Positions 11,529 to 33,850 of a DNA stretch of 64,000 nucleotides are shown one piece after another (within the stretch, counting starts at the first letter, position 1; each line of letters begins with the position of its first letter). The stretch comes from Cryobacterium lactosi (lineage in GTDB: Bacteria; Actinomycetota; Actinomycetes; Actinomycetales; Microbacteriaceae). The DNA is taken from the NCBI RefSeq assembly GCF_004403945.1, contig NZ_SOHM01000049.1:1-64000 (forward strand), read 5' to 3'. The position numbers and the translations under genes are program-made. Below the pieces are notes generated by a model. That model saw only the letters and a program-made list of their open reading frames with translations. It was not told the DNA's origin and searched no databases.

Positions 11529-12089
11529 TCAGGCTTTCGCGCGGAGATAGACGTAAACGGTTTCGCGGCTGATCCCAAACTCCCGAGCAAGCACAGACTT
11601 CGGCACACCCGCGGCAGCCTTCTCGCGCAGCTCAGCCGCGCGGACCGTGTCCAGCGACGCGGTACGACCGCGGTAGACGCCACGCTTCTTCGCCAGGGCA
11701 ATTCCCTCGCGCTGGCGTTCACGGATCAAAGACCGCTCAAACTCAGCAAACGCCCCCATAACGTTCAAAAGCAGGTTCGCCATCGCGTTGTCATCGCCCG
11801 TGAAGGTGAGCTGCTCTTTCACGAACTCAACCCGGACCTTTTTCGCCGTGAGCCGGCGCACGATCAAGCGAAGGTCATCGAGGTTGCGGGCCAACCGGTC
11901 CATGGAGTGCACGAGAACGGTATCGCCGTCGCGAACGAACTTGATCATCTCCTCCAGCTCGGGCCGGTTCTGATTCTTCCCCGACGCCTTATCCTCAAAC
12001 ACCCGATCAACTTCGACGCCAGCAAGCTGACGGATGGTGTTCTGATCTAAAGCGCTCACTCGCACATATCCAACTCGCTGACCCGCCAT
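11529..12089 (-). CDS. Serine recombinase, resolvase/invertase family
   Basis: A 186-residue small serine recombinase, full length for the family. Ser12 in VGYVRVSALDQN is the expected nucleophile. FEDKASGKNQNRPELEEMI and VHSMDRLARNLDDL carry the conserved arginines of the catalytic core. FAEFERSLIRERQREGIALAKKRG is the long E-helix, and GVPKSVLAREFGISRETVYVYLR is the C-terminal helix-turn-helix. It is the only intact recombinase of this type in the window and is most like Tn3-family resolvases. No transposase accompanies it, so it may be a relic of a Tn3-like unit or act on a res site upstream (12090-12180). Confidence 0.9.
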   Translation of the reverse strand: MAGQRVGYVRVSALDQNTIRQLAGVEVDRVFEDKASGKNQNRPELEEMIKFVRDGDTVLVHSMDRLARNLDDLRLIVRRLTAKKVRVEFVKEQLTFTGDDNAMANLLLNVMGAFAEFERSLIRERQREGIALAKKRGVYRGRTASLDTVRAAELREKAAAGVPKSVLAREFGISRETVYVYLRAKA

Positions 12090-16261: not shown

Positions 16262-16688
16262 CCTCTCGGCCGACCGGACCGGCGATCAGCTCGTCGTGAC
16301 TAAACTCGACCGGCTCGGCAGGTCGCTGGAAAACCTCATCGATCTATCGAACACCCTCCAGGAGCGCGGCGTTGATCTGGTGGTCTTGGATCAGGGCATC
16401 GACACGTCCAGCATCACCGGGCGGATGTTCTTCCAGATCCTTGGCTCGATTGCCGAGTTTGAACATGCCCTGATGTCTGAACGCACCCGCGATGGGCTGG
16501 CCGCGGCCCGTGCCCGGGGACGGACCGGCGGGCAGAAACCCAAGCTCGGGCCTCGCCAGGTCAGACTGGCCCGCGACATGTATGAGGAGAAAGACGCCGA
16601 CGGCAAACGGGCCCACACCGTCCAGCACATCGCCGAGGAATTCGGAGTCACTCGCCCCACGATCTACCGGCACCTGGCCAAGCCATGA
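16262..16688 (+). pseudogene. Serine recombinase lacking its N-terminus
   Basis: The frame starts abruptly at [22 protein letters not shown] and continues through FFQILGSIAEFEHALMSERTRDGL to the C-terminal helix-turn-helix VQHIAEEFGVTRPTIYRHLAKP and a normal stop. About 55 residues including the catalytic serine are absent, so it cannot be active. The break coincides with the break in the histidine kinase gene, marking a rearrangement junction around 16256-16262. Confidence 0.85.
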
Positions 16689-17327
16689 GCCTCGAACGTC
16701 CGATGCGGCACGAGTTAGCAGCTCATCAATCTTGAGCAGCGACATGCCCGTTGGGGCGTAGTTCTTCCTGCGTTGTCAACCGCTTCTGCTCAAGGACGTT
16801 GAGATGTTGTGCAGAGGAGTATGAAAAACCAGTGTTCACACTCGCCTGCACAACCTTGAAATCTCAAGGGCTGGTGTGCAGACGACTTCGAAAAATGACA
16901 GGAACCCGCCGCGGTGAGAATGCTTATCTCGATGTCAGGGGCGCGGGCGCGTCCCCATTGGGGCTCGTCGATCACCGGTGGTGATCTGGCGGTTCGGCGG
17001 GGGAGGGACGATGATGGGCGGACGGGCCCTGGGGGAGGGTGATGGGTTTCCTCGTGATGCGGCTGTGTGTGATCAACTCTTTGTAGGCCGTTTCAGCACA
17101 GGAAACCGGCCAAGTTAGCGGCAGGTTTCCTGCCAAAAGAGCGATAAAAATCAGGCCAGGCAATCCCCCCTCCACGACGGTGGTTTTTGGGGATGGCGCA
17201 GAGATTGAGATCACCGGTGGCCGCGGCCCTCTTCAGCGAGCTGGAGACAGGGGCCCGCCACCCCAGATAGGTTCCTAAAAGGCGTGTCTACTGCCAAGCG
17301 GTCGCGCCGGAAGGAACCAGGAAGCAG
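16689..17327. other. Intergenic/IS-flank region without a recognisable gene
   Basis: About 640 bases between the recombinase remnant and an IS21 istA fragment. Small inverted repeats such as GATCACC-GGT-GGTGATC lie near 16970. A minus-strand frame of 80 codons (16972-17214) has no family resemblance I can name. The right part presumably includes the left end of the IS21 element whose istA starts at 17328. Confidence 0.45.
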
Positions 17328-17916
17328 ATGACGGTACCCATGTCCGTGCAAGAAAATATCAGAACACTCGATGCCCACGGAATCGCGGCCCGGGAAATCG
17401 CCCGCCGGTTGGGGATCAACCGCGACGCGGTGGTCAAGTACACCAAGCAACAGGATTTTTCGCCAAAGCCACCGGCGCGCGTGTCCCGGCCCGCTGGTTC
17501 GGTCTTGACCGGGTTCGAAGACACCATTGAGCTGTGGCTGGGCGAGGACCAGCGCCGGCCGCGCAAGCAACGCCACACCGCCAAACGGGTCTTTGACCGC
17601 CTCGTCGTCGAGGAGCGCTACACCGGCAGCTACTCCCCGGTGCAACGCTTCGTCAGGAAATGGAATGCCCAACACCGCCAGGCCGGGGAAGGCTTCACCG
17701 AACTGGTCTGGCCGGCCGGGACCGCGCAGGTCGATTTCGGCCAGGCCGAGGCCATCATCGCCGGGGTCCGGCAGATCCTGCACATCTTCGTCGTCACGTT
17801 CCCGTTCTCGAACATGCGCTTCGTGCAGGCCTACCGCGGCGAAACGGCCGAGTGTGTCTGCCACGGCTTGCGCACAGTGTTCGACCTCATCGGCGCAGCT
17901 CCCCGGCATCTGGTGA
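17328..17916 (+). pseudogene. IS21 family IstA, N-terminal half (element B)
   Basis: The start MTVPMSVQENIRTLDAHGIAAR begins a typical IstA helix-turn-helix (EIARRLGINRDAVVKY). It continues into the catalytic core with GTAQVDFGQAEAI (first Asp) and FVVTFPFSNMRFVQAYRGE. At GAAPRHLV the protein is cut, and the frame runs into a 28-bp palindrome and then antisense through another istA. The second Asp, the Glu and istB are missing. It differs clearly in sequence from the other two IS21 types in the window. A GGAAGGAACC-type ribosome site precedes it. Confidence 0.85.
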
Positions 17917-17944
17917 CCGAATATGTTCCGCGGAACATATTCGG
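17917..17944. repeat. 28-bp perfect palindrome joining two istA fragments
   Basis: A perfect 28-bp palindrome with core ATGTTCCGCGGAACAT and symmetry centre between 17930 and 17931. Read from either side it encodes EYVPRNIFG in frame with the truncated istA on that side. To the left lies IS21 element B in plus orientation, to the right element A in minus orientation. The palindrome is not part of a normal istA (the intact copy at 29783 reads YVLTDNEKTV here), so it is foreign to both. Confidence 0.9.
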
Positions 17945-18503
17945 GCAGGACGTAGGTCGGGGCGCCCTCGATGATGCGGAACGTGCGTTCCAACGCGGCG
18001 AACACCGTTGGAGCCGTTCGGTCCCGCAACGCGATCACGACCCGAAACCGGGACCAGGCCAACCAGGCGATGAACAACACCGTCTTCTTCCCCTCGATGA
18101 CGGGGCCGTCGCCGAAGTCGTGCTGCAACCACATGCCTGGTTCCGTGATCCACGGCCGGTGCACCCGCACCCGGCCGAACCGATACGCGACCCGCACCTG
18201 CGCGACCGCGCGCCGCGTCGAGCGTTCCGCGCCCGTGTAACCCAGCCCGCGGAGCTTGTCGTGCGCGATATCGGCGCGGATCTTCCCGAGGGACTTCTCC
18301 ATCCATTCCTCGATCTTGGGCAGGAACGCGTCGGTGACGCGGCCCCGATACGTCGGGTCCGCGACCGGTTTACCCGCGTCGCGCGCGGCGACATGCCGGG
18401 CGACGGTGTGGTGCGAGCAGCCGGTGAGCTCGGCCGTGGCGCGCAATGACTCGGTCAGATCGTAAGCAGCGAGTATTTCCACGATTTCTCCGTCAAACTT
18501 CAT
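17945..18503 (-). pseudogene. IS21 family IstA, N-terminal part (element A)
   Basis: The protein starts MKFDGEIVEILAAYDLTESL and stays aligned with the complete IstA at 29783 (many scattered substitutions, same length) up to RIIEGAPTYVL, residue about 186. It then enters the palindrome. The first catalytic Asp (MWLQHDFGDG) is present but the remainder is lost. It is a diverged relative of the intact inner IS21 element, not a recent copy. Confidence 0.85.
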
Positions 18504-18673
18504 TCAGGGCCTCTTCCTGGGCGAATTGATGCGTCTTAGACACCGCAATCAAACCCCAGGAGGAGGCTCGCGCCGCTTAAGCGGTCGGGTTCAGAAAAGG
18601 AAGTGGGCAGATCTCATGGCCACCAACGGGCAGTTCTGCTGGCCGTCAGTGGGCAGTTCCATGGCCGCTTGGG
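18504..18673 (-). mobile_element. IS21 element A, left terminal region remnant
   Basis: Upstream of the truncated istA lie the multiple short repeats typical of IS21 ends: GTGGGCAGATCTCATGGCC, then GGGCAGTTCTGCTGGCC and GGGCAGTTCCATGGCC. The same repeats border the complete element at 29587-32222. The outermost end is lost because an IS30 element begins at 18674. Confidence 0.75.
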
Positions 18674-20159
18674 TTCTAGTGATCGTCGCAACACTCACCA
18701 TTCTGAGAGTTGCAACGCCCATGCTCGAGACCCCGAACCCGCCGTTACCGCGCAGGACCTACCGCGAAGCCGAGAGGACCGCGTTCCTCGACGCGTTCGA
18801 ACGCCTCGGCAAGGTCAGCCTCGCAGCCCGAGAGGTCGGGCTTCATCCCGCCAGCTGTTACAAGTGGCTTGTCGATGCCGGCTTTGACGCTAAGAAACAC
18901 AGCCGGGCCCGACGCGCGGAGTACTTCCGACTCCGTCAGCCCGGCACCGCCCGCGCCGACGCAGCCCGACAGACCGGGCTGAACATTCGCACCGCGATCG
19001 ACTGGGACCAGGGAATCGAACACGCCAGCAACCGTCGGGTGTACCCCGACGGCCGCGTCGTCGACTACAACAAGGAAGTGCCTGTTCTCAGCGAAGCCCG
19101 TCAACGTCTGCTGCTTCCCCTGGTCGAGAGGCAGCTGGACCCGCGGTACCTGTCGCTCGTCGACCGGGAAAAGATCCGCGACCTCGCGGCCACCGGGGCA
19201 TCGATCCGATCCATCGCACAGAGCATGCTCAGGGCGCCTTCGACGATCAGTCGGGAGCTGCGCCGTAACCGCACCGACACGGGCAGCTACGAGCCCTACG
19301 CAGCCCACCGCGCGGCCGCTGAGCGCCGAACCCGCCCCAAGGACATCAAGCTGGTCGAAGGCTCACGATTGCGCGACTGCGTGCAGAAAAAAAGCTACAG
19401 ACCCGCTGGTCTCCCGAGCAAATCTGCCACGCTTTGATCAAGGAGTATCCCGATGATCAGGAGATGCGAGTGTCACCCGAGACGGTCTACCAAGCCCTAT
19501 ACCTGCAATCCCGGGGCGGGCTGAAGAAGGAAGTCCAGGCTGCGCTGCGCACCGGACGCACCCGCCGGAAAGCGCAGAACACCGGACAAGCCCGCAGGAA
19601 TAGATTCGCCGATCCCATGATCATGATCGCTGACCGGCCACCCGAAATTGAAGACCGCGCCGTTCCCGGCCACTGGGAAGGAGACCTCATCACCGGCATG
19701 CTGAACCAGTCCGCGATCGGCACCCTGGTCGAGCGGACCACCCGGTATGTGATGCTGGTGCACCTGCCCGACAACCACGCCGCCGAAGCCGTCAGAGACG
19801 GCCTCGTGGCCGCCATCGGCACCCTCCCGGAACACCTCCGCGGCTCGCTGACCTGGGACCAAGGATCCGAGATGGCGACCCACAGATCGTTCACCACAGC
19901 CACGGACATGCCCGTGTATTTCTGCGACCCGGCGAGCCCCTGGCAACGCGGCTCCAACGAAAACGCCAACGGTCTACTCCGGCAATATTTCCCGAAAAGC
20001 ACCGACCTCTCCGCCTACGGACTGGAAGATCTGGAGCACGTAGCCCAGGAACTCAACAGTCGTCCTCGCAAAACACTCGCTTGGGACACCCCAGCCGAGC
20101 GAATCCGTGATCTACTAATCCCGGCCTAATCCACCGCAGTGTTGCAACGACTGCTAGAA
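18674..20159 (+). mobile_element. IS30 family insertion sequence
   Basis: Imperfect inverted repeats bound the element: TTCTAGTGATCGTCGCAACACT at 18674 and its near complement ending CTGCTAGAA at 20159 (about 18 of 22 matching). Between them is one transposase, split by a frameshift. The left flank is an IS21 end. The right flank is different sequence, with no obvious duplication, so a deletion probably followed insertion. Confidence 0.75.
18721..20129 (+). pseudogene. IS30 family transposase with a -1 frameshift at an A7 run
   Basis: The first frame (from ATG 18721) gives a long N-terminal HTH region (RRTYREAERTAFLDAFERL, ASCYKWLVDAGF) and the IS30 helix-turn-helix SIRSIAQSMLRAPSTISRELRRN. 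After CVQKK it goes out of frame and stops at 19437. The next frame resumes with KLQTRWSPEQI and carries VPGHWEGDLI (Asp), TWDQGSEMATH (Asp) and PWQRGSNENANGLLR (Glu). The shift is at seven As, 19387-19393; re-reading one A restores a roughly 470-residue protein. It is either a mutation or slippage-dependent expression. Confidence 0.85.
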
Positions 20160-20175
20160 ACCGCCCCCGGAGTGG

Positions 20176-20213
20176 GGAATTTCAGTGAGCAGAACTGAGG
20201 AATTTCAGTGAGC
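20176..20213. repeat. Two direct copies of GGAATTTCAGTGAGC
   Basis: The 15-base motif occurs at 20176-20190 and 20199-20213, 23 bp apart. Spaced short direct repeats of this sort are typical of IS21-family ends, so this is probably the tip of an otherwise lost element lying between the IS30 and the recombinase fragment. Confidence 0.5.
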
Positions 20214-20518
20214 GCCGTCACGGCGGTGACGTCGACACGGCAACGCCTATGGGTTCCATGCTGTTCACGATCATGGCCGCACTCGGTCAGATGGAACATG
20301 AAATCAAGCGAGAACGTGTAATCGACTCGATCGTCAAACGCCGGGACGCCGGGAAGAACCTAGGCGGCCGTCCGCGCTCCATCACCGACAGCCAAATCCG
20401 CCACGCCCGCAGCCTCATAGGGCACGGTGAGATAGCGGCCGAGGTCGCGCGCAATCTCGGCATGTCTAGAGCGACCTTCTATCGCCGGGCGCGCGCCCTG
20501 GGTCTCCTGCCGGATTAG
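20214..20518 (+). pseudogene. Serine recombinase, C-terminal half
   Basis: The frame reads GGDVDTATPMGSMLFTIMAALGQ, then MEHEIKRERVIDSIVKRRDAGKNLGGRPR and a helix-turn-helix ending MSRATFYRRARALGLLPD, stop. It is a close homologue of the pseudogene at 3385-4029 but lacks the first 95 or so residues with the catalytic serine. The junction with the preceding IS end repeats at about 20214 is sharp. Confidence 0.85.
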
Positions 20519-20599
20519 GAAGCGCCTGACGCTCGATAGCGCCAACCGGCCCGCGTGGACGTCGATCAGGGCCGCTCAGGCTCCAATCGAGACAGGCCG

Positions 20600-20724
20600 G
20601 CCTGGCCCGCGCTCTCGCTGCGTCACTCGATCGCGGAACTAGCAGAGCTGTTCACGGTCGGTCGAGCGACGGTCTACCGGGCGATTAAGCGTAGGGCTGC
20701 CGTTGACGTTTCGCGAGGCGCATA
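20600..20724 (+). pseudogene. Recombinase helix-turn-helix scrap
   Basis: A short frame, HSIAELAELFTVGRATVYRAIKRR, is the DNA-binding tail of another Hin-type serine recombinase, different in sequence from the fragment just upstream. Nothing else of the gene remains. Confidence 0.6.
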
Positions 20725-20874
20725 ACCCCCGGCTATGTACGCTGAGCGCGTCAGGAACGGCTGGGATGGCCATGACCCACCCTCAACCTCGAGACCCCAG
20801 CCAACCGGCTGAACCAACTGCTACTCGCAGCATAAAACCCCGCGTTGCCCCGACCGCTTGACTTTGCCGCCTGG

Positions 20875-22197
20875 CTACTCCTGCCAAGTCTCAGCGAGGG
20901 CGGATGCGGGCACGGGTCGTCCGAGGAAATAGCCCTGGACCTGGTCGCATCCGAGGCGTCGAAGGTGCTCGAGCTGCTCGGCGGTCTCCACTCCCTCGGC
21001 GACGCAGGTCATATCTAGTGCGTGCGCGAGTGCGATAACTGCCGAGACAAGGACTTCGTCACGGGCATTCGTTGTGAGACCGGCAACGAAGGATCGGTCG
21101 ATTTTGAGCTCTTTTGCCGGAAGATAGCGAAGATAGGCCAGGGACGAATAGCCGGTTCCAAAATCGTCGATGGACAGCCCGACTCCGGCGGCAGCAAGTC
21201 CTTTAACTGTGGCTTGCATGCGCGACTCGTCCGCCATGAATGCCGTTTCGGTCATCTCCAGCAGGAGATCGGACGGCGCGAGATGATGTTTGGTCAGAAG
21301 CTGTCGCACGAGACCGACGAGGTTTGGGTTAGCCAGCTGGAAGGGTGAAACGTTGACGGAGACGGTGAGCTTGGCAGGAAACCGGTTCGATTGCCTCCAT
21401 TCACTTAATTGCCGCAATGCCTCGTCTATCACCCAGTCTCCGATTCGGAGTATCAGTCCCGTGCTTTCGGCAGCCGGAATGAACTCATCCGGGGGGACCA
21501 TTCCGCGACCAGGTCGGTTCCACCGAACGAGGGCTTCGAATCCATGGAGGGCGCCGTCGAAGGCGTTGTAGATAGGTTGGAAATTGAGTATAAATTCCTC
21601 ACGATCCAGAGCCTTGCGCAGAGCCTGCTCCAATTCGAGGAAGTGCAATGCCCGGCTGCTGTATCCCTGCTCGAAGAGGGAGGCTTGGTTCCCTCCCTGG
21701 CTCTTTGCGCGCTGCATGGCGGAGTCGACTTCGTGCATTATGTCGATCGAGTTCTGCCGGCGGGTGACGCTGGTGATGCCTACGGAAACGGACAACTGCA
21801 GCTCGACCCCGTTCAGGACGGCGGGTCTGTCGAAGGACTGCACGATGCGGTCGCCGATCGCGATGGCGCTTTGGGCATCGTTTGCATCCATGCACAGGAT
21901 AAGGAATTCATCGCTGCCCACCCTGGCGGCGGTGTCTTCGGGCTGAAGGGCCGCGGTGATTTGCTGCGCTGCATACCGTAAGACCTCATCTCCGACGTCA
22001 TGGCCCAGGGAGTTGTTCACGACGCTGAATCGGTCCAGATCGACGAGGAGCAAGGCTGACTCGTGCCCGATTTCTTGCCGATAAAACAGCTCTTCAGCGC
22101 GCTTCATGAACTGGGAGCTGTTTAACAGCCCCGTCACAGAATCGTTCACCAGGAAGGCTGAGGCGTTAGCGCCGTGTCGGGCAGCATCGTTGCCCAT
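20875..22197 (-). CDS. Bifunctional GGDEF-EAL c-di-GMP protein
   Basis: A 440-residue cytoplasmic protein with no membrane segment. Residues 20-180 form a GGDEF domain whose signature is GSDEF (ARVGSDEFLIL), with VDLDRFSVVNNSLGHDVGDEVL. Residues 200-435 form an EAL domain with GFEALVRW, SVNVSPFQL, EMTETAFM, DDFGTGYSSL and KIDRSFV, so the metal-binding residues needed for c-di-GMP hydrolysis look complete. The cyclase signature varies only at the first Gly, which may lower or keep activity. The chosen ATG (22197) overlaps the stop of the preceding gene (TAATG), indicating translational coupling. It is the last gene of an operon headed by a c-di-GMP riboswitch. Confidence 0.9.
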   Translation of the reverse strand: MGNDAARHGANASAFLVNDSVTGLLNSSQFMKRAEELFYRQEIGHESALLLVDLDRFSVVNNSLGHDVGDEVLRYAAQQITAALQPEDTAARVGSDEFLILCMDANDAQSAIAIGDRIVQSFDRPAVLNGVELQLSVSVGITSVTRRQNSIDIMHEVDSAMQRAKSQGGNQASLFEQGYSSRALHFLELEQALRKALDREEFILNFQPIYNAFDGALHGFEALVRWNRPGRGMVPPDEFIPAAESTGLILRIGDWVIDEALRQLSEWRQSNRFPAKLTVSVNVSPFQLANPNLVGLVRQLLTKHHLAPSDLLLEMTETAFMADESRMQATVKGLAAAGVGLSIDDFGTGYSSLAYLRYLPAKELKIDRSFVAGLTTNARDEVLVSAVIALAHALDMTCVAEGVETAEQLEHLRRLGCDQVQGYFLGRPVPASALAETWQE

Positions 22198-22466
22198 TAT
22201 TGGGTGCCCATCAGATTTGGTTCCGTTTCGTCTACGGGGGCCTTGTCCTGGTGGCGGCGGGATGGGGTTTGCTTCGTCCAGTGGTAGACGGTTTCTCGAG
22301 TGTCGCGATTCAGCCACATTCCGGCGACGGCCGTGCCGCTGTCGTCAAGTGGGTCGACGAGCAGGACGGGGAGTTCACCGGTCTGGTTCAGTCGCAGCGT
22401 GATGCGTTCGACGGCCGCGGAATCTGCGGGATGCAATTCAACCTGAATCAGTTTGCTGGAATTCAT
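22197..22466 (-). CDS. Small protein of unknown function in the WxL-like operon
   Basis: An 89-residue soluble protein that I do not recognise. It starts MNSSKLIQVELHPADSAAVERITLRLNQTG and has a central VLLVDPLDDSGTAVAGMWLNRDTRETVYHWTKQ; the end is charged. It has no signal peptide. It sits 56 bases after the DUF916-like gene and its stop overlaps the GGDEF-EAL start, so it is almost certainly translated. An adaptor or regulator of the following enzyme is conceivable but unsupported. Confidence 0.65.
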   Translation of the reverse strand: MNSSKLIQVELHPADSAAVERITLRLNQTGELPVLLVDPLDDSGTAVAGMWLNRDTRETVYHWTKQTPSRRHQDKAPVDETEPNLMGTQ

Positions 22467-22522
22467 CGATTGCCTTCAATCTTCAATGTAGGGATGCACC
22501 GGCCTTTTTGGTGCTTCAGCAT

Positions 22523-23563
22523 CTAGCGCCGGCGTTGGCGTCGCGCCCACATCATCGTGACAAACGTGAGGAAGACGAGGATGCCTAGCGAGACGACCAC
22601 GACTGGCCACATGTTGAGACCGTTTCCGGTCGCGAGAGTGACTGTTTGGCCGGCCCGGGGGAAGGTGATTTCGGCAGTCGCTTCATGCTCGATCAACCCG
22701 CTTTGGAGTGTGAGCACGGCCTGCCAGGGCCCTGCCGGGAAGCCTTCCTCAAGTGTCACCACCACCTGTCCTTGATCCCCCGGTGCCAAGGTCGTGGCGT
22801 TCTCAGTTGGAAACGGGCCCGCTGAGAGACCGCTTGGGCCCTCGGTTAGGGTAAGCGAGCCGACGACGTCCAGGGCGCGTCCGCCAGTGTTTGTCAGTGT
22901 CGCGGTGACTTGTGGCAGCCCCTCCGGTGTCCGGCTTGCTTCCACAGTCCCAATCGAGAAGTCTGTGGCTTCACCATTGCCGGCGCCGACGGAGACGTAC
23001 ATGCGAATGCCGACTCGACTAGCGTTGATGATGGTGGTGTCTTCGTCGCTGGGGGCACGTACTTCAGCCCACACGGCCGCGTATCTCTCACCGCTTGAGG
23101 CATCGCCGGGGACCGCCACGGTTATCGTCACATCCGCTGTGGCGCGGGCCTGAAGCGTGAGTTGGGATTCGCTAAGTGTGGTCCAGGTCGTCAGCTCGTT
23201 GACGGTATCTCCTTCATCGCCGATGAAGGAACCGGATTCGATGCGGGCAGATCCGGCATACACCGTCACGGATAGCGGGGAAGCTGAGTGGTTAGCCAGC
23301 TGTGCTCGACGATCGATGGTGGTTCCGGGGGGCAGGTTGTCGACTATGTATGAACGGGCACGCGGGTCGTTCTGGGCGGCCTTGGGAACATCGAGCAGTC
23401 GGATCCCGATGCCCTCGTCAGCCGTGGCTGTCCGTTCCTGGGTTGTGAAGCCACTTGTCGAGCCCGCGGCGGGCACCGAGGTTGCCGCAAAAATATTCAA
23501 CAGAACGATCGTGAATACTGTGAGTAATAGACGCAATGTGACATGCCTCTTTCGTGGTTCCAC
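22523..23563 (-). CDS. DUF916-like cell-surface protein with C-terminal membrane anchor
   Basis: A 346-residue exported protein. It has an N-terminal signal (LRLLLTVFTIVLLNIFAATSVPAAG). The first Ig-like domain, with GIRLLDVPKAAQNDPRARSYIVDNLPPGTTI and SGERYAAVWAEVRAP, matches the DUF916 (WxL-interacting protein) pattern. A second beta domain holds VTATLTNTGGRALDVVGSLTL. A C-terminal membrane helix (MWPVVVVSLGILVFLTFVTMMW) ends in RRQRRR. In Firmicutes such proteins bind WxL proteins and anchor them at the surface; here the gene directly follows a WxL-like gene, so the same pairing is inferred. Confidence 0.8.
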   Translation of the reverse strand: MEPRKRHVTLRLLLTVFTIVLLNIFAATSVPAAGSTSGFTTQERTATADEGIGIRLLDVPKAAQNDPRARSYIVDNLPPGTTIDRRAQLANHSASPLSVTVYAGSARIESGSFIGDEGDTVNELTTWTTLSESQLTLQARATADVTITVAVPGDASSGERYAAVWAEVRAPSDEDTTIINASRVGIRMYVSVGAGNGEATDFSIGTVEASRTPEGLPQVTATLTNTGGRALDVVGSLTLTEGPSGLSAGPFPTENATTLAPGDQGQVVVTLEEGFPAGPWQAVLTLQSGLIEHEATAEITFPRAGQTVTLATGNGLNMWPVVVVSLGILVFLTFVTMMWARRQRRR

Positions 23564-23635
23564 GGACAGAGCGCCCGTCGTCGATTCGCAAAGCGAAGCG
23601 AAGGGGCGGCGCGCACGCCACCCCTTCGAGACAAC

Positions 23636-24172
23636 CTAGAGAAGCGAGTGAGTCAGAGTGCCTGTGTAGTCACCAGCAAGGGCGTTCGCCGGGATGGTCA
23701 GGGCGACCTCGGCGGTCCACGTCGCGGCGTTGTTTCCCGCGGCAGTTGCGGTTTGCACGGTTGAGGACGCGCCGCCCGTCACCGTACCAGATCCAGTCAC
23801 TACGCCTTGGCCGGCTCCAGTCGGTGTCGCTGCGCTGGCCGTGTAGCTGAATGCTGTGGCAGGAATCACCGGCGAATTTGCAACCAGGGACGTGAAGTCA
23901 GAGACGGTGATGCTGGCAGTCCAGCCGACGGTGCTTGCTGTGGCGTCTGTCACGGTGACCGTTCCCAGAGACCCGGTTGCTGGTGCGCCTGGGCCGGTCG
24001 AGTTGAGAGTCAGCGCTGCGGGCACATCGAGGGTAAGGTCGCCTCCCTGAACGGTCACGGTTGCGTCGGTGTCCTTGGGAGGGTCCGTGGCGGCGGTAGC
24101 TGAGAGGGCGGTGGTTCCGGTCAATGCAATGGCGCCGATAAGGGCGATGGAGGCACGGGTGATCGTACGCAT
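23636..24172 (-). CDS. WxL-like secreted surface protein
   Basis: A 178-residue protein with a clear signal peptide (MRTITRASIALIGAIALTGT, cleavage probably after SATAA) and an all-beta mature part rich in Thr, Ser, Ala and Gly. VGWTASITVSDFTSL supplies a W-x-A/W-x-V type motif, and WTAEVALTIPANALAGDYTGTLTHSLL is the typical closing strand of WxL-domain proteins. It is the first gene of the operon, 18 bases downstream of a c-di-GMP riboswitch. Likely role: non-covalent attachment to the cell wall and adhesion or matrix formation, by analogy. Confidence 0.8.
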   Translation of the reverse strand: MRTITRASIALIGAIALTGTTALSATAATDPPKDTDATVTVQGGDLTLDVPAALTLNSTGPGAPATGSLGTVTVTDATASTVGWTASITVSDFTSLVANSPVIPATAFSYTASAATPTGAGQGVVTGSGTVTGGASSTVQTATAAGNNAATWTAEVALTIPANALAGDYTGTLTHSLL

Positions 24173-24189
24173 GATGAGTGGGGTTCTCT

Positions 24190-24264
24190 CGGTTCGGTAG
24201 CCCGGCTAACCCTGAGGGGGTCCCGTAGCTTTGCGTCCCCGGCTTGCACCGAGTTTGCCTTTTT
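24190..24264 (-). promoter_or_regulatory. c-di-GMP-I (GEMM) riboswitch
   Basis: Read on the minus strand, the leader contains GGCAAAC, then CGGGGACGCAAAGCUACGGG, then UUAGCCGGGCUACCGA. These are the conserved J1/2 segment, the GNRA-like loop (GUGCAAGC), the invariant GACGCAAAGCYACGGG block and the 3' P3/P1 strand of class I cyclic-di-GMP riboswitches, in correct order and spacing. The aptamer ends about 18 bases before the ATG of the WxL-like gene, next to its GAGAGA ribosome site, with no terminator between. Control is therefore probably at translation initiation. Confidence 0.92.
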
Positions 24265-24387
24265 CGATGAGGCCTGCCGCGAATGCGGGAGCGAGAAAAT
24301 CTCGCTTGTACCTCAACCCCAGTGTGGGGATTTTTGTGTTGATCTGCTAATCCACTCCACCCCCAGTTAGGGGGGCTTATGTGCTTG

Positions 24388-24654
24388 TCAAGCGGCGAGT
24401 TGGTGGTCGGCTTGGTAGAGGGTGCCGTCGCGGAGCATGGCGTAGAGGACGTCGCGGCACCTGCGGGCGAGGGTGACGAGGGCTTGATTGTGGCGTTTGC
24501 CTTGGGCGATTTTGCGGTCGTAGTAGGCGCGTGAGGTGGGAACGGGGAGCGCTGCGAAGGCCGAGAGGAACAGCGCTCGTTTGAGAATCTTGGTTCCGCG
24601 TCGGGACGGGTGTTCACTGCGGATGGAGCTGCCCGAGTGGCGGGTTCCAGCCCG
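24388..24654 (-). pseudogene. IS110 family transposase, C-terminal fragment
   Basis: The minus frame reads HPSRRGTKILKRALFLSAFAAL, SRAYYDRKIAQGKRHNQALVTLARRRC, DVLYAMLRDGTLY and a stop. This is the end of the transposase_20 domain of IS110/IS1111 elements, including the serine region's downstream signature. The N-terminal RuvC-like DEDD part is missing. Confidence 0.85.
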
Positions 24655-24733
24655 CTAAACTGAGCGCAGCCACTTCGGCGTGACGTCTTCGAGTCACACG
24701 CAGCAGGACACCAGCTGTGAGGACAGACACCCC

Positions 24734-25303
24734 ATGAAAAAGAAGACCGCCATTATCGCATCCGCTGCCGGCCTAGTGCTGGTACTCGGTACAGTTGGCA
24801 TCACCTATGCCGTCACTGAGATGGGCGATGACACGCTCACTGGCAATATACTCGAGCGCACCAGCAATGCTGCGCTAGCCGAGGTTGGGCCCGGCACTGT
24901 GACAACGGCCGAGCGCAACGATGATGGCGGCTCGGCCTATGACCTGTCTGTGCGGCTCGACAATGGCGGCGAGGTCGATGTTGAACTCAACGAGTCCTTC
25001 GACGTCGTCTGGGTCGGCGACTTCGACAACGATGATGACGGAAGCTATGTTCCGAGCGCTTCCGCTGCACCGAGCGCTGCAGCCACGACCGCGTCCACTG
25101 CGGAGCAGGCTGCGGCCGAGCAGGCCAGCGCCGAAGCGGCCGCGCTGGCCGCAGTCGGCAGCGGACGCGTTACGGAATTCGATCGCAGCGATGACGCTAA
25201 CCACCTCTACGAGGTCGAGGTCACCCTGGATAACGGCCAGGACGTCGACGTCGAACTCGCCGCCTCATTCGTCGTCCTCACTCTGGACAACGGGCGTCAG
25301 TAA
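24734..25303 (+). CDS. Exported PepSY-like domain protein
   Basis: A 189-residue protein with an N-terminal membrane/signal helix (KKKTAIIASAAGLVLVLGTVGITYAV) and two similar domains. LAEVGPGTVTTAERNDDGGSAYDLSVRLDNGGEVDVELNESFDVV is repeated as LAAVGSGRVTEFDRSDDANHLYEVEVTLDNGQDVDVELAASFVVL. Both look like PepSY units. A low-complexity Ala/Ser/Glu linker lies between. PepSY proteins are secreted or lipoprotein-like and may inhibit peptidases or modulate sensors. The true start is ATG 24734. No kinase gene is adjacent. Confidence 0.8.
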   Translation: MKKKTAIIASAAGLVLVLGTVGITYAVTEMGDDTLTGNILERTSNAALAEVGPGTVTTAERNDDGGSAYDLSVRLDNGGEVDVELNESFDVVWVGDFDNDDDGSYVPSASAAPSAAATTASTAEQAAAEQASAEAAALAAVGSGRVTEFDRSDDANHLYEVEVTLDNGQDVDVELAASFVVLTLDNGRQ

Positions 25304-25390: not shown

Positions 25391-25876
25391 CTAGCGTTCG
25401 AACCCAGGCCATCTCATGGCGATCATGACCGGATCGGACAGCGGACGACCGAAGCGCGTCCCGTTCTGCCGGGCGGCGGCAATCCCGGCATTGACGCGTT
25501 CGACGATAAGTTCGCGCTCGTACTCGGCGAGGGTGGCGAGCATGTTCAGCATCAGCCTGCCCGTCGACGTCGCCGGGTCGATGCCATCCGAAATGGATCG
25601 CACCTGGACGCCGCGCTCGCGCAGCAGGTTCACCGTGTTCAGGACGTCGATGAGGGAGCGGCCGAGCCGGTCGATTCGCCACACGACGACCGTGTCACCA
25701 GGTTCCGCGTACCCGAGGAGCTTCTTCATCCCGGGCCGCTCGATCGCGGTCTTGCTTCCTGACGTGACGTCAGCGAACACGTCGCGTTTCTGCACGCCAG
25801 CATTGACGAGCGCGTCGAGCTGCAGCTGCGCATCCTGGCTCGATGTGCTCACACGCGTGTACCCAATAGGCCTCAT
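25391..25876 (-). CDS. Serine recombinase missing its C-terminal DNA-binding domain
   Basis: A 161-residue recombinase with an intact catalytic domain: Ser10 in IGYTRVSTSSQDAQLQLDAL, SGSKTAIERPGMKKLL, VVWRIDRLGRSLIDVL, and the E-helix TLAEYERELIVERVNAGIAAAR. It breaks off after GRPLSDPVMIA into MRWPGFER and a stop, where the helix-turn-helix should follow. It is thus probably unable to bind its site. A long palindrome lies about 140 bases upstream. Confidence 0.85.
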   Translation of the reverse strand: MRPIGYTRVSTSSQDAQLQLDALVNAGVQKRDVFADVTSGSKTAIERPGMKKLLGYAEPGDTVVVWRIDRLGRSLIDVLNTVNLLRERGVQVRSISDGIDPATSTGRLMLNMLATLAEYERELIVERVNAGIAAARQNGTRFGRPLSDPVMIAMRWPGFER

Positions 25877-26013
25877 TCTTCCATTGTGACTCACAAACCC
25901 AGTCTCTCCAGTCGCCTGAGACGTTTTACGGCGAGACACATTTATGGGACATCGAGCGGCCCGCCACCTTGTGGGTGGGGACCATGGGGGGATCGAGTGT
26001 CTCGGAAATCTTA

Positions 26014-29782: not shown

Positions 29783-31309
29783 ATGAAGTTTGACGGAGAA
29801 ATCATGGAAATACTCGCTGCCTACGACCTGACCGGGTCGTTGCGCGCCACAGCCGAGCTCACCGGCTGCTCGCACCACACTGTTGCCCGGCACGTCGCTG
29901 CCCGCGACGCCGGCCGGCCCATCGCGGAACCCGCGTTCCGGGGCCGGGTCACGGACCCGTTTATGCCCAAGATCGAGGAATGGGTCGAGAAGTCCAAAGG
30001 CAAGATCCGCGCCGACAAAGCCCACGAGAAGCTCCGGGCCCTCGGCTATGACGGGTCGGAGCGGTCGACCCGGCGGGCGGTCGCGCAGGTTCGCGCCGCG
30101 TTCCGGCTGGGCCAGGTGCGAGTGCACCGGCCCTGGATTACCGAGCCGGGCATGTGGTTGCAGTACGACTTCGGCGACGGCCCCGTCATCGACGGGAAGA
30201 AGACCGTGTTGTTCGTCGCCTGGCTGGCCTGGGCCAGGTTCCGCATCGTGATCGCGCTGCGCGACCGGACGGCGCCGAGCGTGTTCGCAGCGTTGGATCG
30301 CTCCTTCCGGATTCTCGGCGGAGCACCGACCTACGTCCTCACCGACAACGAGAAAACCGTCACCATCTCGCATGTTGCGGGCGTTCCGGTGCGCAATCCA
30401 CAGACGGTCGAGTTCGCTCGGCACTACGGCGTGACCGTGCTCACCTGCCAGCCCGCGGACCCGGCTTCCAAGGGTGGGGTGGAGTCGTCGGTGAAGCTAG
30501 CCAAGGCTGACATCGTGCCCAAAGACACCAACCTGCGCCCCGAATATGCCTCGTTCGCTGAGGTCGAAGCGGCCTGCGAGGCGTTCATGGTCGAGGTCAA
30601 CAACCGGGAGCACCGCGCCACCAAGCGGAAGCCCGCGGTGATGCTCGAGGAGGAACGGCCCCGGCTGCACCGGGTTCCCGACACCGCGCACACCGTCGCG
30701 CTGGGCCTGACCCGGGCCGTTCCGGAGAACACGCCGATGGTCACGTTCGAGACCGGCCAGTACTCCGTTCCGGCGCACCTGCTCGGCGCCCGGGTGTTCG
30801 TCCGCAGCCACGGCGTTGGGGCCGACGAGCAGGTCGTCATCGTCCACGTCGGCAGCGACGGCCCCGTCGAGGTCGCCCGGCACCACCGGGCCCGGCCCGG
30901 CAGCCCACGCCTCGACGAGGCCCACTTCCCGGGCCACAAGGAGAAGGTCCCGGGTGACTACACGATCACCCCGCGCAGCACCGCAGAGACCGAGTTCTTG
31001 GCCATCGGCGCCGGCGCTCACGCCTGGCTCCTCGAGGCCGCCGCGGCCGGCACCGCGCGGATGAACGTGAAAATGGCTGAGGCCGTCGCCTTAGCTAAGA
31101 TCAGCGGCACCGCCCGAGTCGACGAGGCCCTCGGCCAAGCGGCCACTTACGGTCGGTTCGCGACCGGTGATCTCGCCTCGCTACTCAGCGCGGGCGGCAC
31201 CCGTCCGCCGGCACGCTCAGCGGCGGAGACCAGTTCGCTGGCGCAGGGCACCGCCGGGTGGGCAGCCATCGGACAGCCCGCCGAGGACGAGCTGGAGCAG
31301 AGCGCATGA
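29783..31309 (+). CDS. istA: IS21 family transposase IstA (inner element)
   Basis: A 508-residue transposase with no internal stop. It has an N-terminal helix-turn-helix region (ATAELTGCSHHTVARHV). The catalytic core has Asp in MWLQYDFGDGPV, a second Asp in YVLTDNEKTV, and Glu in DPASKGGVESSVKLAK. A C-terminal part follows that contacts the terminal repeats and IstB. It catalyses insertion of the element with strand transfer. Its start codon lies within the sequence AGGCCCTGAATGAAG, behind a long imperfect hairpin that may damp translation. Confidence 0.95.
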   Translation: MKFDGEIMEILAAYDLTGSLRATAELTGCSHHTVARHVAARDAGRPIAEPAFRGRVTDPFMPKIEEWVEKSKGKIRADKAHEKLRALGYDGSERSTRRAVAQVRAAFRLGQVRVHRPWITEPGMWLQYDFGDGPVIDGKKTVLFVAWLAWARFRIVIALRDRTAPSVFAALDRSFRILGGAPTYVLTDNEKTVTISHVAGVPVRNPQTVEFARHYGVTVLTCQPADPASKGGVESSVKLAKADIVPKDTNLRPEYASFAEVEAACEAFMVEVNNREHRATKRKPAVMLEEERPRLHRVPDTAHTVALGLTRAVPENTPMVTFETGQYSVPAHLLGARVFVRSHGVGADEQVVIVHVGSDGPVEVARHHRARPGSPRLDEAHFPGHKEKVPGDYTITPRSTAETEFLAIGAGAHAWLLEAAAAGTARMNVKMAEAVALAKISGTARVDEALGQAATYGRFATGDLASLLSAGGTRPPARSAAETSSLAQGTAGWAAIGQPAEDELEQSA

Positions 31310-32085
31310 GCGTCACCCAGGCCGCCGCACCGGCCCTGCCAGCGGAGCTGGAAGCGTTGATGCGGCAGCTGAAGATGCCCTACGCCCGAGCCCTGGCCCC
31401 TGAGCTCATCGCGACCGCCCGGGCGCAACGATGGGAACCCACCGAGATCATCAAGGCCCTTTTCGTCGAGGAAGTTACCGGCCGGTCCCGGTCAATGCTC
31501 GCGACCCGGCGGCGGGCGGCGGGGTTCCCGACCGGGAAGACGTTCGATACCTGGGACGAGTCGGCGTCCTCGATCCCGGTGCCCACGCAACAAGCTTTGC
31601 GGACGTTGGAGTGGATCGGCCGGAAGGAGAACGTCGTCGTTTGCGGCCCGTCAGGGACCGGGAAGACGTTCTTCCTCGAGGCCCTCGGCCAGCAAGTCGT
31701 CGAGGCCGGCATGCGAGTCGCGTGGTTCCGCCTCGAAGATCTCGGCGCCCTGGTTAGGGCGCACCGGGCTGACGACTCCGTCGGCCGGGTCGTGGCCAGG
31801 ATCCTGCGCTCTGACCTGATCGTGATCGACGACATCGGCCTGCTTGAAGTCGGTGCCGATGCCGCCGAGGGCCTCTATCGACTCGTCGATGCTGCTTACG
31901 AAAAACGGTCCATCGCGATCTCGTCGAACCTGCACCCGGCGGGCTTTGACGAGCTCATGCCCAAGACACTCGCGACGGCGACCGTTGACCGGCTCCTGCA
32001 CCACGCCCACGTCTGCCAAACCTCGGGCGACTCGATCCGCCTCACCCAGGCCCTCGCCGGGAAGGGCGTCACAAAGATGAGCTAA
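31306..32085 (+). CDS. istB: IS21 helper ATPase IstB (inner element)
   Basis: A 259-residue AAA+ ATPase related to DnaA/DnaC. Walker A is VCGPSGTGKTFF, Walker B LIVIDDIGLL, and ISSNLHPAGFDELM is the sensor region. The N-terminal helical domain has YARALAPELIATARAQRW. IstB bends target DNA and directs IstA to its insertion site. Its ATG overlaps the istA stop (ATGA), so the two are translationally coupled. Confidence 0.95.
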   Translation: MSVTQAAAPALPAELEALMRQLKMPYARALAPELIATARAQRWEPTEIIKALFVEEVTGRSRSMLATRRRAAGFPTGKTFDTWDESASSIPVPTQQALRTLEWIGRKENVVVCGPSGTGKTFFLEALGQQVVEAGMRVAWFRLEDLGALVRAHRADDSVGRVVARILRSDLIVIDDIGLLEVGADAAEGLYRLVDAAYEKRSIAISSNLHPAGFDELMPKTLATATVDRLLHHAHVCQTSGDSIRLTQALAGKGVTKMS

Positions 32086-32228
32086 ACCACCCACGACCGC
32101 GCATGGCCAACGCCACCAACACCCAGGTGGGCAGATCTGTTGGCCATGAGTGGGCAGTTTCCCTGGCCACCAGCGGGCAATTCTGCTGGCCGCCTACGGG
32201 CAGTTCCTAATGGCCATTGACACCGCAC

Positions 32229-33089
32229 GAGGCCCTGCCGCTGGGTCATGACCAGGCCGGCACGCCTCCGGTGCTGGTGATGACGTCCACGTTCTCCGGG
32301 TTCATCCAAGGCCGCATGCTCCCGACGCGGACGACACCGGATCTACTCGGCGGAATGTGGTCGATGGTCGAGGAAGCCGGCGCGGTGCCGACCCGGCTGA
32401 CCTGGGACAACGAAGCGGGCATCGGCCGCGGGAAACTCACCGAGCCAGCCGCCGCGTTCGCCGGCACGCTGGGCACCCAGATCAAACTGCTCAAGGCCCG
32501 CGACCCCGAGTCCAAGGGAATGGTCGAGCGGATGAACCAGTTCTTCCGCAGCCGCTTCATGTCTGGTCGCACGTTCACCTCGCCCGACGACTTCAACGAA
32601 CAGCTCACCGACTGGCTGCCGATCGCGAACAACCGGCTCTCCCGGTCCCGGCGCGGCCGGCCCAACGATCTGGTCAGCATCGACCGGGCCGCGATGCGCG
32701 GGCTCCCACCGATGGCACCGGAGGTGATGTTCCGCAACAGCGTCCGGTTGCCCCGCGATTACTACGTTCGGGCGTTCAGCAACGACTACTCCGTGGACCC
32801 GAGCATGATCGGCCGGGTCGTGGACGTCACGGTGAGCCTGGACACCGTCTCCGTTCATCACGATGGGATTCTTATCGCCCAGCACCGGCGGAAATGGGCG
32901 CGGCAGCTGACCGTGACCGACCCCGAACCTGTTGCCCGAGCGGCCGAGCTCCGCGCCCAGTTCCAAGCCCAACGCGCCCACCGGCCCGCCGTGACACCGG
33001 TCGTTGAGACGGCGTCGCTGGCCCGCTACGACGAACTGTTCAGCGTTGACATCGACGCCGCGCCTGTCGTCTTGGCGGTCGCGTCGTGA
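32229..33089 (+). pseudogene. istA: istA of outer IS21, 3' part
   Basis: The frame resumes with HEALPLGHDQAG and contains LTWDNEAGIG (second Asp), DPESKGMVERMNQFFRSRFM (Glu) and the C-terminal region to VVLAVAS. Its last codons overlap the start of istB at 33086. It is broken only by the inner insertion and would be whole without it. Confidence 0.9.
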
Positions 33090-33850
33090 TCGGCCCGGAG
33101 GCGGTCTCGCAGATCGAGTACTACTCCCGCGCGCTGCGGGCGCCGCGGATCAGTGAAGCGTTCCGCCGCCTGGGCGACCAGGCCCGCGACGCGGGTTGGT
33201 CTCACGAGGAGTACTTGGCCGCGGTGCTCTCCAAAGAAGTCGCTGAACGCGAAGCCTCCGGTGCCAATCTGCGGATCAAGGCCGCCCGGTTCCCCGGCCA
33301 CAAGATCCTCGAAGACTTCAACTTCGACCACCAACCGTCAGCAGACCGGAACCTGATCGCGCACCTGGGCACCAGCGTGTTCCTGACCGAAGCGAAGAAC
33401 GTTGTCCTGCTCGGCCCGCCCGGGACCGGAAAAACGCACCTCGCCGTCGGAATTGGCATCAAGGCCGCTAAAGCGGGCCACCGGGTCCTCTTCGACACCG
33501 CGACCGGCTGGGTCAGCCGCCTCCAAGACGCTCATTCTCGGGGCAAGCTCCCCGCCGAACTGGCCCGGCTCCGCCGATACAGCCTGCTCATCGTCGATGA
33601 AGTCGGCTACATCCCGTTCGACCAAGACGCCGCGAACCTGTTCTTCCAACTCGTCTCGAGCCGCTACGAACACGCGTCGCTGGTCATGACGAGCAACTTA
33701 CCCTTCGCCCGCTGGGGCGACGTGTTCGGCGACTTGACCATCGCTTCCGCGATGATCGACCGCATCGTCCACCACGCCGACGTGATCAGCCTCAAAGGCA
33801 ACAGCTACCGGCTCAAGCAACACCAACCCACCGCGACTACGGCACACTAG
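33086..33850 (+). CDS. istB: IS21 helper ATPase IstB (outer element)
   Basis: A 254-residue AAA+ ATPase with Walker A LLGPPGTGKTHLAV, Walker B LLIVDEVGYIPFDQDAA and sensor MTSNLPFARWGDVFGD. It starts GTGATC, overlapping the end of its istA by four bases (GTGA). It is intact, but its istA partner is interrupted, so the outer element cannot move on its own unless another IstA works for it. Confidence 0.95.
   Translation: MIGPEAVSQIEYYSRALRAPRISEAFRRLGDQARDAGWSHEEYLAAVLSKEVAEREASGANLRIKAARFPGHKILEDFNFDHQPSADRNLIAHLGTSVFLTEAKNVVLLGPPGTGKTHLAVGIGIKAAKAGHRVLFDTATGWVSRLQDAHSRGKLPAELARLRRYSLLIVDEVGYIPFDQDAANLFFQLVSSRYEHASLVMTSNLPFARWGDVFGDLTIASAMIDRIVHHADVISLKGNSYRLKQHQPTATTAH

Follow-up and report, generated by a model that had tools for sequence, protein, structure and literature searches.

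We analysed a 64,000-nucleotide (nt) stretch of Cryobacterium lactosi DNA (the window; contig NZ_SOHM01000049.1, positions 1 to 64,000), whose minus strand carries a cyclic di-GMP (c-di-GMP) riboswitch aptamer followed by four open reading frames (ORFs) in the order ORF1, ORF2, ORF3, ORF4, all of them open. ORF1 and ORF2 are likened to WxL-type surface proteins, and ORF4 to enzymes of c-di-GMP metabolism. From the aptamer downstream, with protein lengths in amino acids (aa), the features are:

24192..24268, minus strand: c-di-GMP-I-GGC riboswitch aptamer (RF03167; cmscan score above gathering)
24173..24191, minus strand: spacer of 19 nt with a GAGAGA ribosome-site-like sequence (from the sequence)
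23636..24172, minus strand: ORF1, WxL-like secreted beta protein, 178 aa, hydrophobic N terminus (PF13731, 16.3 bits)
23599..23628, minus strand: GC-rich hairpin of 13 base pairs between ORF1 and ORF2 (pattern scan, ViennaRNA)
22523..23563, minus strand: ORF2, WxLIP/DUF916-like protein, 346 aa from GTG (PF06030, 14.0 bits)
22197..22466, minus strand: ORF3, small domain of 89 aa (open frame; fused to the GGDEF-EAL N terminus in two relatives)
20875..22197, minus strand: ORF4, GGDEF-EAL protein, 440 aa (PF00563, 261.7 bits; PF00990, 125.1 bits)

Across the whole window, cmscan reports RF03167 as the single match at the gathering threshold, with 67.2 bits against a gathering score of 59 (E 1e-13) and the full model covered (1-80 of 80). 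At E<=0.001 the window copy is the only one in the 4.66-Mb genome. A preliminary description of the locus had proposed a class I c-di-GMP aptamer and suggested a covariance-model search; that search, matching at 24192-24268 on the minus strand, bears the proposal out as the GGC variant of the class, with GGCAAAC and the two other motifs first noted lying inside the aptamer in the expected order. The distance from the aptamer end to the ATG of ORF1 at 24172, first put at about 18 nt, measures 19 nt, so a terminator would not fit. Because the start codon is close and a purine-rich start site lies directly behind the aptamer, control of translation initiation is the mode that we propose for the window. 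By eye, a purine-rich stretch lies 3′ of the aptamer in most of 77 leaders. Many leaders in the genus (G347, G310, G239, G335, G300 and others) combine an aptamer, a start site and similar first codons (for instance ATGAGCTTTCC or ATGAACTTC), which are present regardless of the main gene downstream and possibly represent a leader peptide or a pairing element.

The WxL call made for ORF1 in the preliminary description stands in part. At E<=0.1, 29 of 41 ORF1 relatives match the WxL domain PF13731 (best 3.8e-7), whereas ORF1 itself stays under the Pfam cut-off of 25 and has neither Trp-x-Leu motif, its only two tryptophans reading WTA and WTA; because both motifs are absent, we call it WxL-like. 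Its AlphaFold2 model (predicted local distance difference test score 82.7) is nearly all-beta, and the protein fits the pattern of a secreted beta protein with a single domain and about 180 aa, adjoining the DUF916-like ORF2. The closest relatives are 72-87% identical. In the genome the WxL-like profile matches ORF1 alone, and the same search finds no large WxL protein of the Firmicutes-type cluster.

The DUF916 call for ORF2 is qualified in the same way. Whereas ORF2 scores below the PF06030 (WxLIP_PGBD) cut-off of 27.3, the family is matched at E<=0.1 by 30 of its 33 relatives (best 1.3e-6), and the diverged WxLIP proteins of genomes G310 (33.4) and G315 (31.3) exceed the cut-off. DUF3324 is listed neither for ORF2 (E<=1) nor for any of its 33 relatives (E<=0.1), for which reason we name ORF2 WxLIP-like. 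Judged by hydropathy, which peaks at residues 12-30 (2.28) and 321-339 (2.47), ORF2 has a predicted signal peptide and a predicted C-terminal transmembrane helix. An alternative start, TTG at 23536, has a better ribosome site, is used by at least four relatives and would give 337 aa. The ORF2 profile also has one match in the genome, and the closest relatives are 68-77% identical. In two other loci of the survey (L199 4536-5072 and L198 5643-6182) a DtxR-like protein lies behind the WxLIP-like gene; for the L199 copy, Pfam reports Fe_dep_repr_C and FeoA domains and no DNA-binding domain.

One base is shared between the TAA that ends ORF3 (22199-22197) and the ATG that opens ORF4 (22197-22195), which is the TAATG coupling first described, and the identification of ORF4 as a GGDEF-EAL protein is upheld by EAL (PF00563) and GGDEF (PF00990), the only domains above the Pfam cut-off. 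The longest mechanical frame of ORF4 starts at GTG 22317 and would encode 480 aa. Set against the motif list of general knowledge, the EAL domain is intact (EALVRW, SVN, EMTET, DDFG, KIDRSF, EGVET), and the GGDEF motif reads GSDEF, outside GG(D/E)EF. ORF4 is therefore a probable c-di-GMP degrader, and its GGDEF domain has probably lost cyclase activity in C. lactosi. Among PDB entries 4rnh ('Motility regulator') matches best, with 321 bits along the whole composite tandem GGDEF-EAL; we take this entry to be MorA, with a hydrolase role. Unlike it, ORF4 has 440 aa, only two Pfam domains above cut-off, a GSDEF motif and an 89-aa partner domain.

That partner, ORF3, has no match in Pfam or NCBIfam, and a protein search returns two relatives at 64% identity besides ORF3 itself. 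A profile built from these three sequences matches in 23 of 149 related genomes, its own included and 22 of them in the genus, many of the matches being weak. In G302 and G310 (L197, L199) the ORF3-type domain is built into the GGDEF-EAL protein as its N-terminal part; the window and G315 have it as a separate gene directly 5′ of the GGDEF-EAL gene; and in G324 it overlaps the 5′ end of a GGDEF-EAL frame of 984 aa. This fusion and overlap argue that ORF3 acts on the enzyme, and it is best read from these sequence relationships as a detached N-terminal domain of ORF4. Most loci with the domain have no GGDEF-EAL neighbour within 1.5-kilobase (kb) flanks, and in G303 it sits before the WxL-WxLIP pair. 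For this uncharacterised domain the module supplies a first hypothesis of a role.

We surveyed 57 genomes of the genus for RF03167 at E<=0.001 and scanned the regions of the 48 matches outside the window. The aptamer occurs at 49 places in 20 of the genomes, nine of them above the gathering score. Neighbour counts are lower bounds, since five of the regions span less than 4.5 kb and the queries were the window's own domains. On the same strand and within 4.5 kb, a WxL-like match lies downstream of seven of the 49 riboswitches, in six genomes, and a GGDEF or EAL match accompanies 14, the window being included in both counts. EAL matches number about seven per genome (405 in 57); by our estimate, enzyme neighbours of a riboswitch would be rare by chance. 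Four of the six WxL operons (window, G302, G310 and G315) contain both the 89-aa domain and a GGDEF-EAL enzyme, so the operon layout first proposed recurs in other genomes: G302, G310 and G315 share the order riboswitch, WxL-like, WxLIP-like, 89-aa domain, GGDEF-EAL, with one extra gene in between in G310. Five of the six WxL operons have an aptamer above the Rfam cut-off, and the start codon stands 15-20 nt behind the aptamer in the window, G302 and G348. EAL motifs are intact in all four module enzymes, and those of G302, G310 and G315 are 54-56% identical to ORF4; three other GGDEF-EAL proteins reach 36-40%. ORF1, ORF2 and ORF3 each have a relative on a contig 22,796 bases long, probably a single contig in all three cases. 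Ten other WxL-like loci (>120 bits, in nine genomes of the genus) carry no aptamer detectable by Rfam or by a purpose-built model. Because a curated covariance model scores the aptamer well and the same gene order follows the same aptamer family elsewhere, the arrangement is more than chance, and its retention in some related species suggests a self-regulating surface switch.

The reading that we prefer, with confidence a little better than even, is a c-di-GMP-gated surface operon with its own c-di-GMP enzyme, able to read and reset the level of the second messenger. c-di-GMP would bind the GGC-variant class I aptamer in the 5′ leader and alter ribosome access to the ORF1 start. Secreted ORF1 and membrane-anchored ORF2 would form a complex at the wall surface; the hairpin behind ORF1 suggests that ORF1 is made in excess. 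On this reading the four genes would share one transcript, ORF3 would modulate ORF4 as a detached N-terminal domain, and ORF4 would mainly hydrolyse c-di-GMP through its intact EAL domain. An ON switch would then give self-limiting negative feedback, and an OFF switch a latch holding c-di-GMP low; we slightly prefer the ON switch with negative feedback. The closed loop is something we infer, though the comparative evidence lifts it above a guess. Such an operon connects WxL-type surface complexes with c-di-GMP, and a riboswitch closing a feedback loop on its second messenger becomes directly testable in cultivable bacteria.

Several results weigh against this reading. Within the genus, 42 of the 49 riboswitches lead to no WxL match. 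G347 has the 89-aa domain, but its nearest GGDEF-EAL gene is divergent and on the other side, and G348 lacks both the domain and the enzyme. The G315 aptamers (50.2 and 49.7 bits) fall under the Rfam cut-off, and the WxL-like protein of that genome has no Pfam WxL match. The WxL-like start lies 438 nt behind the aptamer in G310, 448 nt in G347 and about 330 nt in G315, which makes direct start-site control impossible for these three. Folding of the leaders with ViennaRNA did not tell an ON from an OFF switch, with no consistent change at the start site between aptamer forced and unforced (10 of 12 leaders mapped). Motility genes, too, stand behind the aptamer in the genus, which sits poorly with a single simple ON rule. 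The enzyme family is not specific to the module, the G313 (55%) and G318 (53%) enzymes outside WxL operons being equally close to ORF4. Among the four module enzymes, the motif reads GADEF in G302 and GGDEF in G310 and G315; since two of the four keep GGDEF, cyclase loss is not a general rule. RF03167 is present in 157 of 396 Actinomycetota genomes, and at 30 loci taken phylum-wide the same aptamer family has no WxL, WxLIP, GGDEF or EAL match in the downstream flank (1.5 kb at most, and less in at least five); by eye, the genes behind many of the 30 look like those of secreted proteins or prepilins.

The loop idea is threatened most by the hairpin after ORF1, which could cut transcription of the distal genes. 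On this alternative the riboswitch governs the surface protein only: transcripts mostly stop at the hairpin, ORF2-ORF4 or ORF3-ORF4 have their own promoter, and no loop exists. The hairpin at 23628-23599 has 13 GC-rich pairs and a weak T tail, and the gap between ORF1 and ORF2 is at least 72 nt; the pattern scan that reported it gave three sites against 3.3 expected in shuffles. ViennaRNA places a hairpin at the same position in G302, G348 and G315. In 44 of 77 other WxL-WxLIP gaps (window excluded; mononucleotide shuffles, 60 nt of coding sequence included) the hairpin exceeds all 30 shuffles; the G302 gap, at 11 against a shuffle maximum of 12, is outside the 44, its hairpin being seen by folding. 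The occurrence of the enzyme family outside WxL operons points the same way. Yet hairpin-bearing WxL-WxLIP pairs stay joined in many Actinomycetota, where the distal gene is presumably read through, and a scan for sigma-70-type promoter-like sites finds none in 20500-24900. Moreover, in four species whose surface proteins have diverged, the enzyme gene stands behind the riboswitch operon. We consider this alternative unlikely, if the most serious of the three weighed here, and regard an attenuator, a processing element and a stabilising element as candidate roles for the hairpin. A GC-rich hairpin in the gap between the WxL-like and WxLIP-like genes was also noted in L195, L197 and L181.

It is distinctly improbable that the operon lies outside c-di-GMP control because its aptamer has drifted or recognises a different cyclic dinucleotide. 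GGC is a variant subfamily, and the first G of GGCAAAC is replaced by A in two aptamers (L015 1501-1574 and G348:C23:75000-75074), a change that in class I aptamers favours cyclic GMP-AMP. The window aptamer, however, retains GGCAAAC as well as the terminal CUACCGA, an alignment of 26 aptamers has 29 invariant columns, and GGDEF/EAL genes are frequent neighbours of the riboswitches in the genus.

Upstream of the operon, two elements of mobile DNA were identified:

24378..24645, minus strand (by eye): IS110-type transposase gene remnant, just upstream of the leader (blastn)
25391-25939: resolvase (profile match)

The remnant shows 69.9-76.1% identity to the 20 listed of 407 matching records, most annotated as IS110 family transposase. 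Further transposase- or resolvase-like frames or remnants lie on both sides by eye (11529-12089, 16296-16688, 17211-20518 and 29783-33850), on a contig (C41) that has 96,665 bases in all. That the single-copy operon is a relic stranded among such genes, its expression lost, is the least probable explanation of all, given four open frames, a high aptamer score, the close ORF1 and ORF2 relatives and the plasmids that carry DUF916 genes with an upstream hypothetical gene. Among the matches listed, three of ten plasmid-borne ORF2 relatives are named DUF916 domain-containing protein. On a conjugative Arthrobacter plasmid (NZ_CP110115.1 97724-106662, L279), two EAL genes and a MarR gene are divergent from a hypothetical-DUF916 pair.

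Beyond the genus, we considered the best 80 of 165 named actinobacterial loci with ORF2 relatives. A strong aptamer match lies upstream of WxL-like and WxLIP-like genes in four of these 80, namely one Actinomycetota metagenome-assembled genome (MAG) and three Aeromicrobium MAGs, of which two are almost identical; the called WxL frames overlap the aptamer in all four, so their start codons are uncertain. GGDEF or EAL matches occur on either strand in 14 of the 80 loci. An EAL frame overlapping or directly adjoining the WxLIP gene is seen in three Arthrobacter/Pseudarthrobacter loci, with a PAS-EAL architecture in the one checked. The eight riboswitch rows are spread over four positions when 88 ORF2 relatives are placed on a tree. 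One supported clade (99/90) unites the window with G302 and G348, another (100/98) holds the Aeromicrobium rows, and L070 and the very long-branched L181 stand apart from the other riboswitch rows. Because the riboswitch-WxL-WxLIP combination turns up on more than one branch of the WxLIP tree, one may picture a module assembled more than once: a mobile, conserved 'surface thermostat' of Actinomycetota, comprising a riboswitch, an excess WxL-like subunit forming a layer or fibre, an anchor, a detachable regulatory domain, a dedicated hydrolase and feedback closed by the riboswitch. This wider picture we put forward as tentative and rather doubtful.

In Clostridioides difficile, c-di-GMP riboswitches control the surface adhesins CD630_28310 and CD630_32460 and type IV pili (PMC6366702). 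There too a c-di-GMP-sensing leader RNA sets the output of cell-surface proteins, but that organism is a firmicute, and its adhesin and pilus genes are governed by class II switches. WxL-type surface complexes have been described almost only from Firmicutes (PMC9772566, PMC10599100). The WxL-WxLIP (DUF916-DUF3324) clusters described there share with the window a small secreted beta protein whose neighbour is an anchored, DUF916-like protein with a membrane helix at its C terminus. The window differs in belonging to Actinomycetota, in the absence of W-x-L motifs and of a large WxL gene, in DUF3324 not being listed, and in having a riboswitch and a c-di-GMP enzyme in the operon. A search of the open PubMed Central literature found no paper linking WxL/DUF916 with c-di-GMP; co-mentions of WxL and cyclic di-GMP, judged by title, concern other matters, and 'WxL' and 'c-di-GMP riboswitch' occur together in no paper among the matches listed.

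The surface operon is one riboswitch target among several in the genus. RF03167 reaches its genus maximum of 74.2 bits in L193 6854-7927 (G307:C30), before an ice-binding-like protein (PF11999, 198.5 bits). In L194 (G338:C49) it precedes a sigma-70-type factor, with flagellin about 1 kb further on, and in L205 (G239:C28) a methyl-accepting chemotaxis protein gene followed by a CheA-like gene. The target in L195 2053-3468 has a GDSL-lipase-like part and then a GAF domain, and the riboswitch targets of L004, L005, L010, L013 and L026 resemble it by eye.

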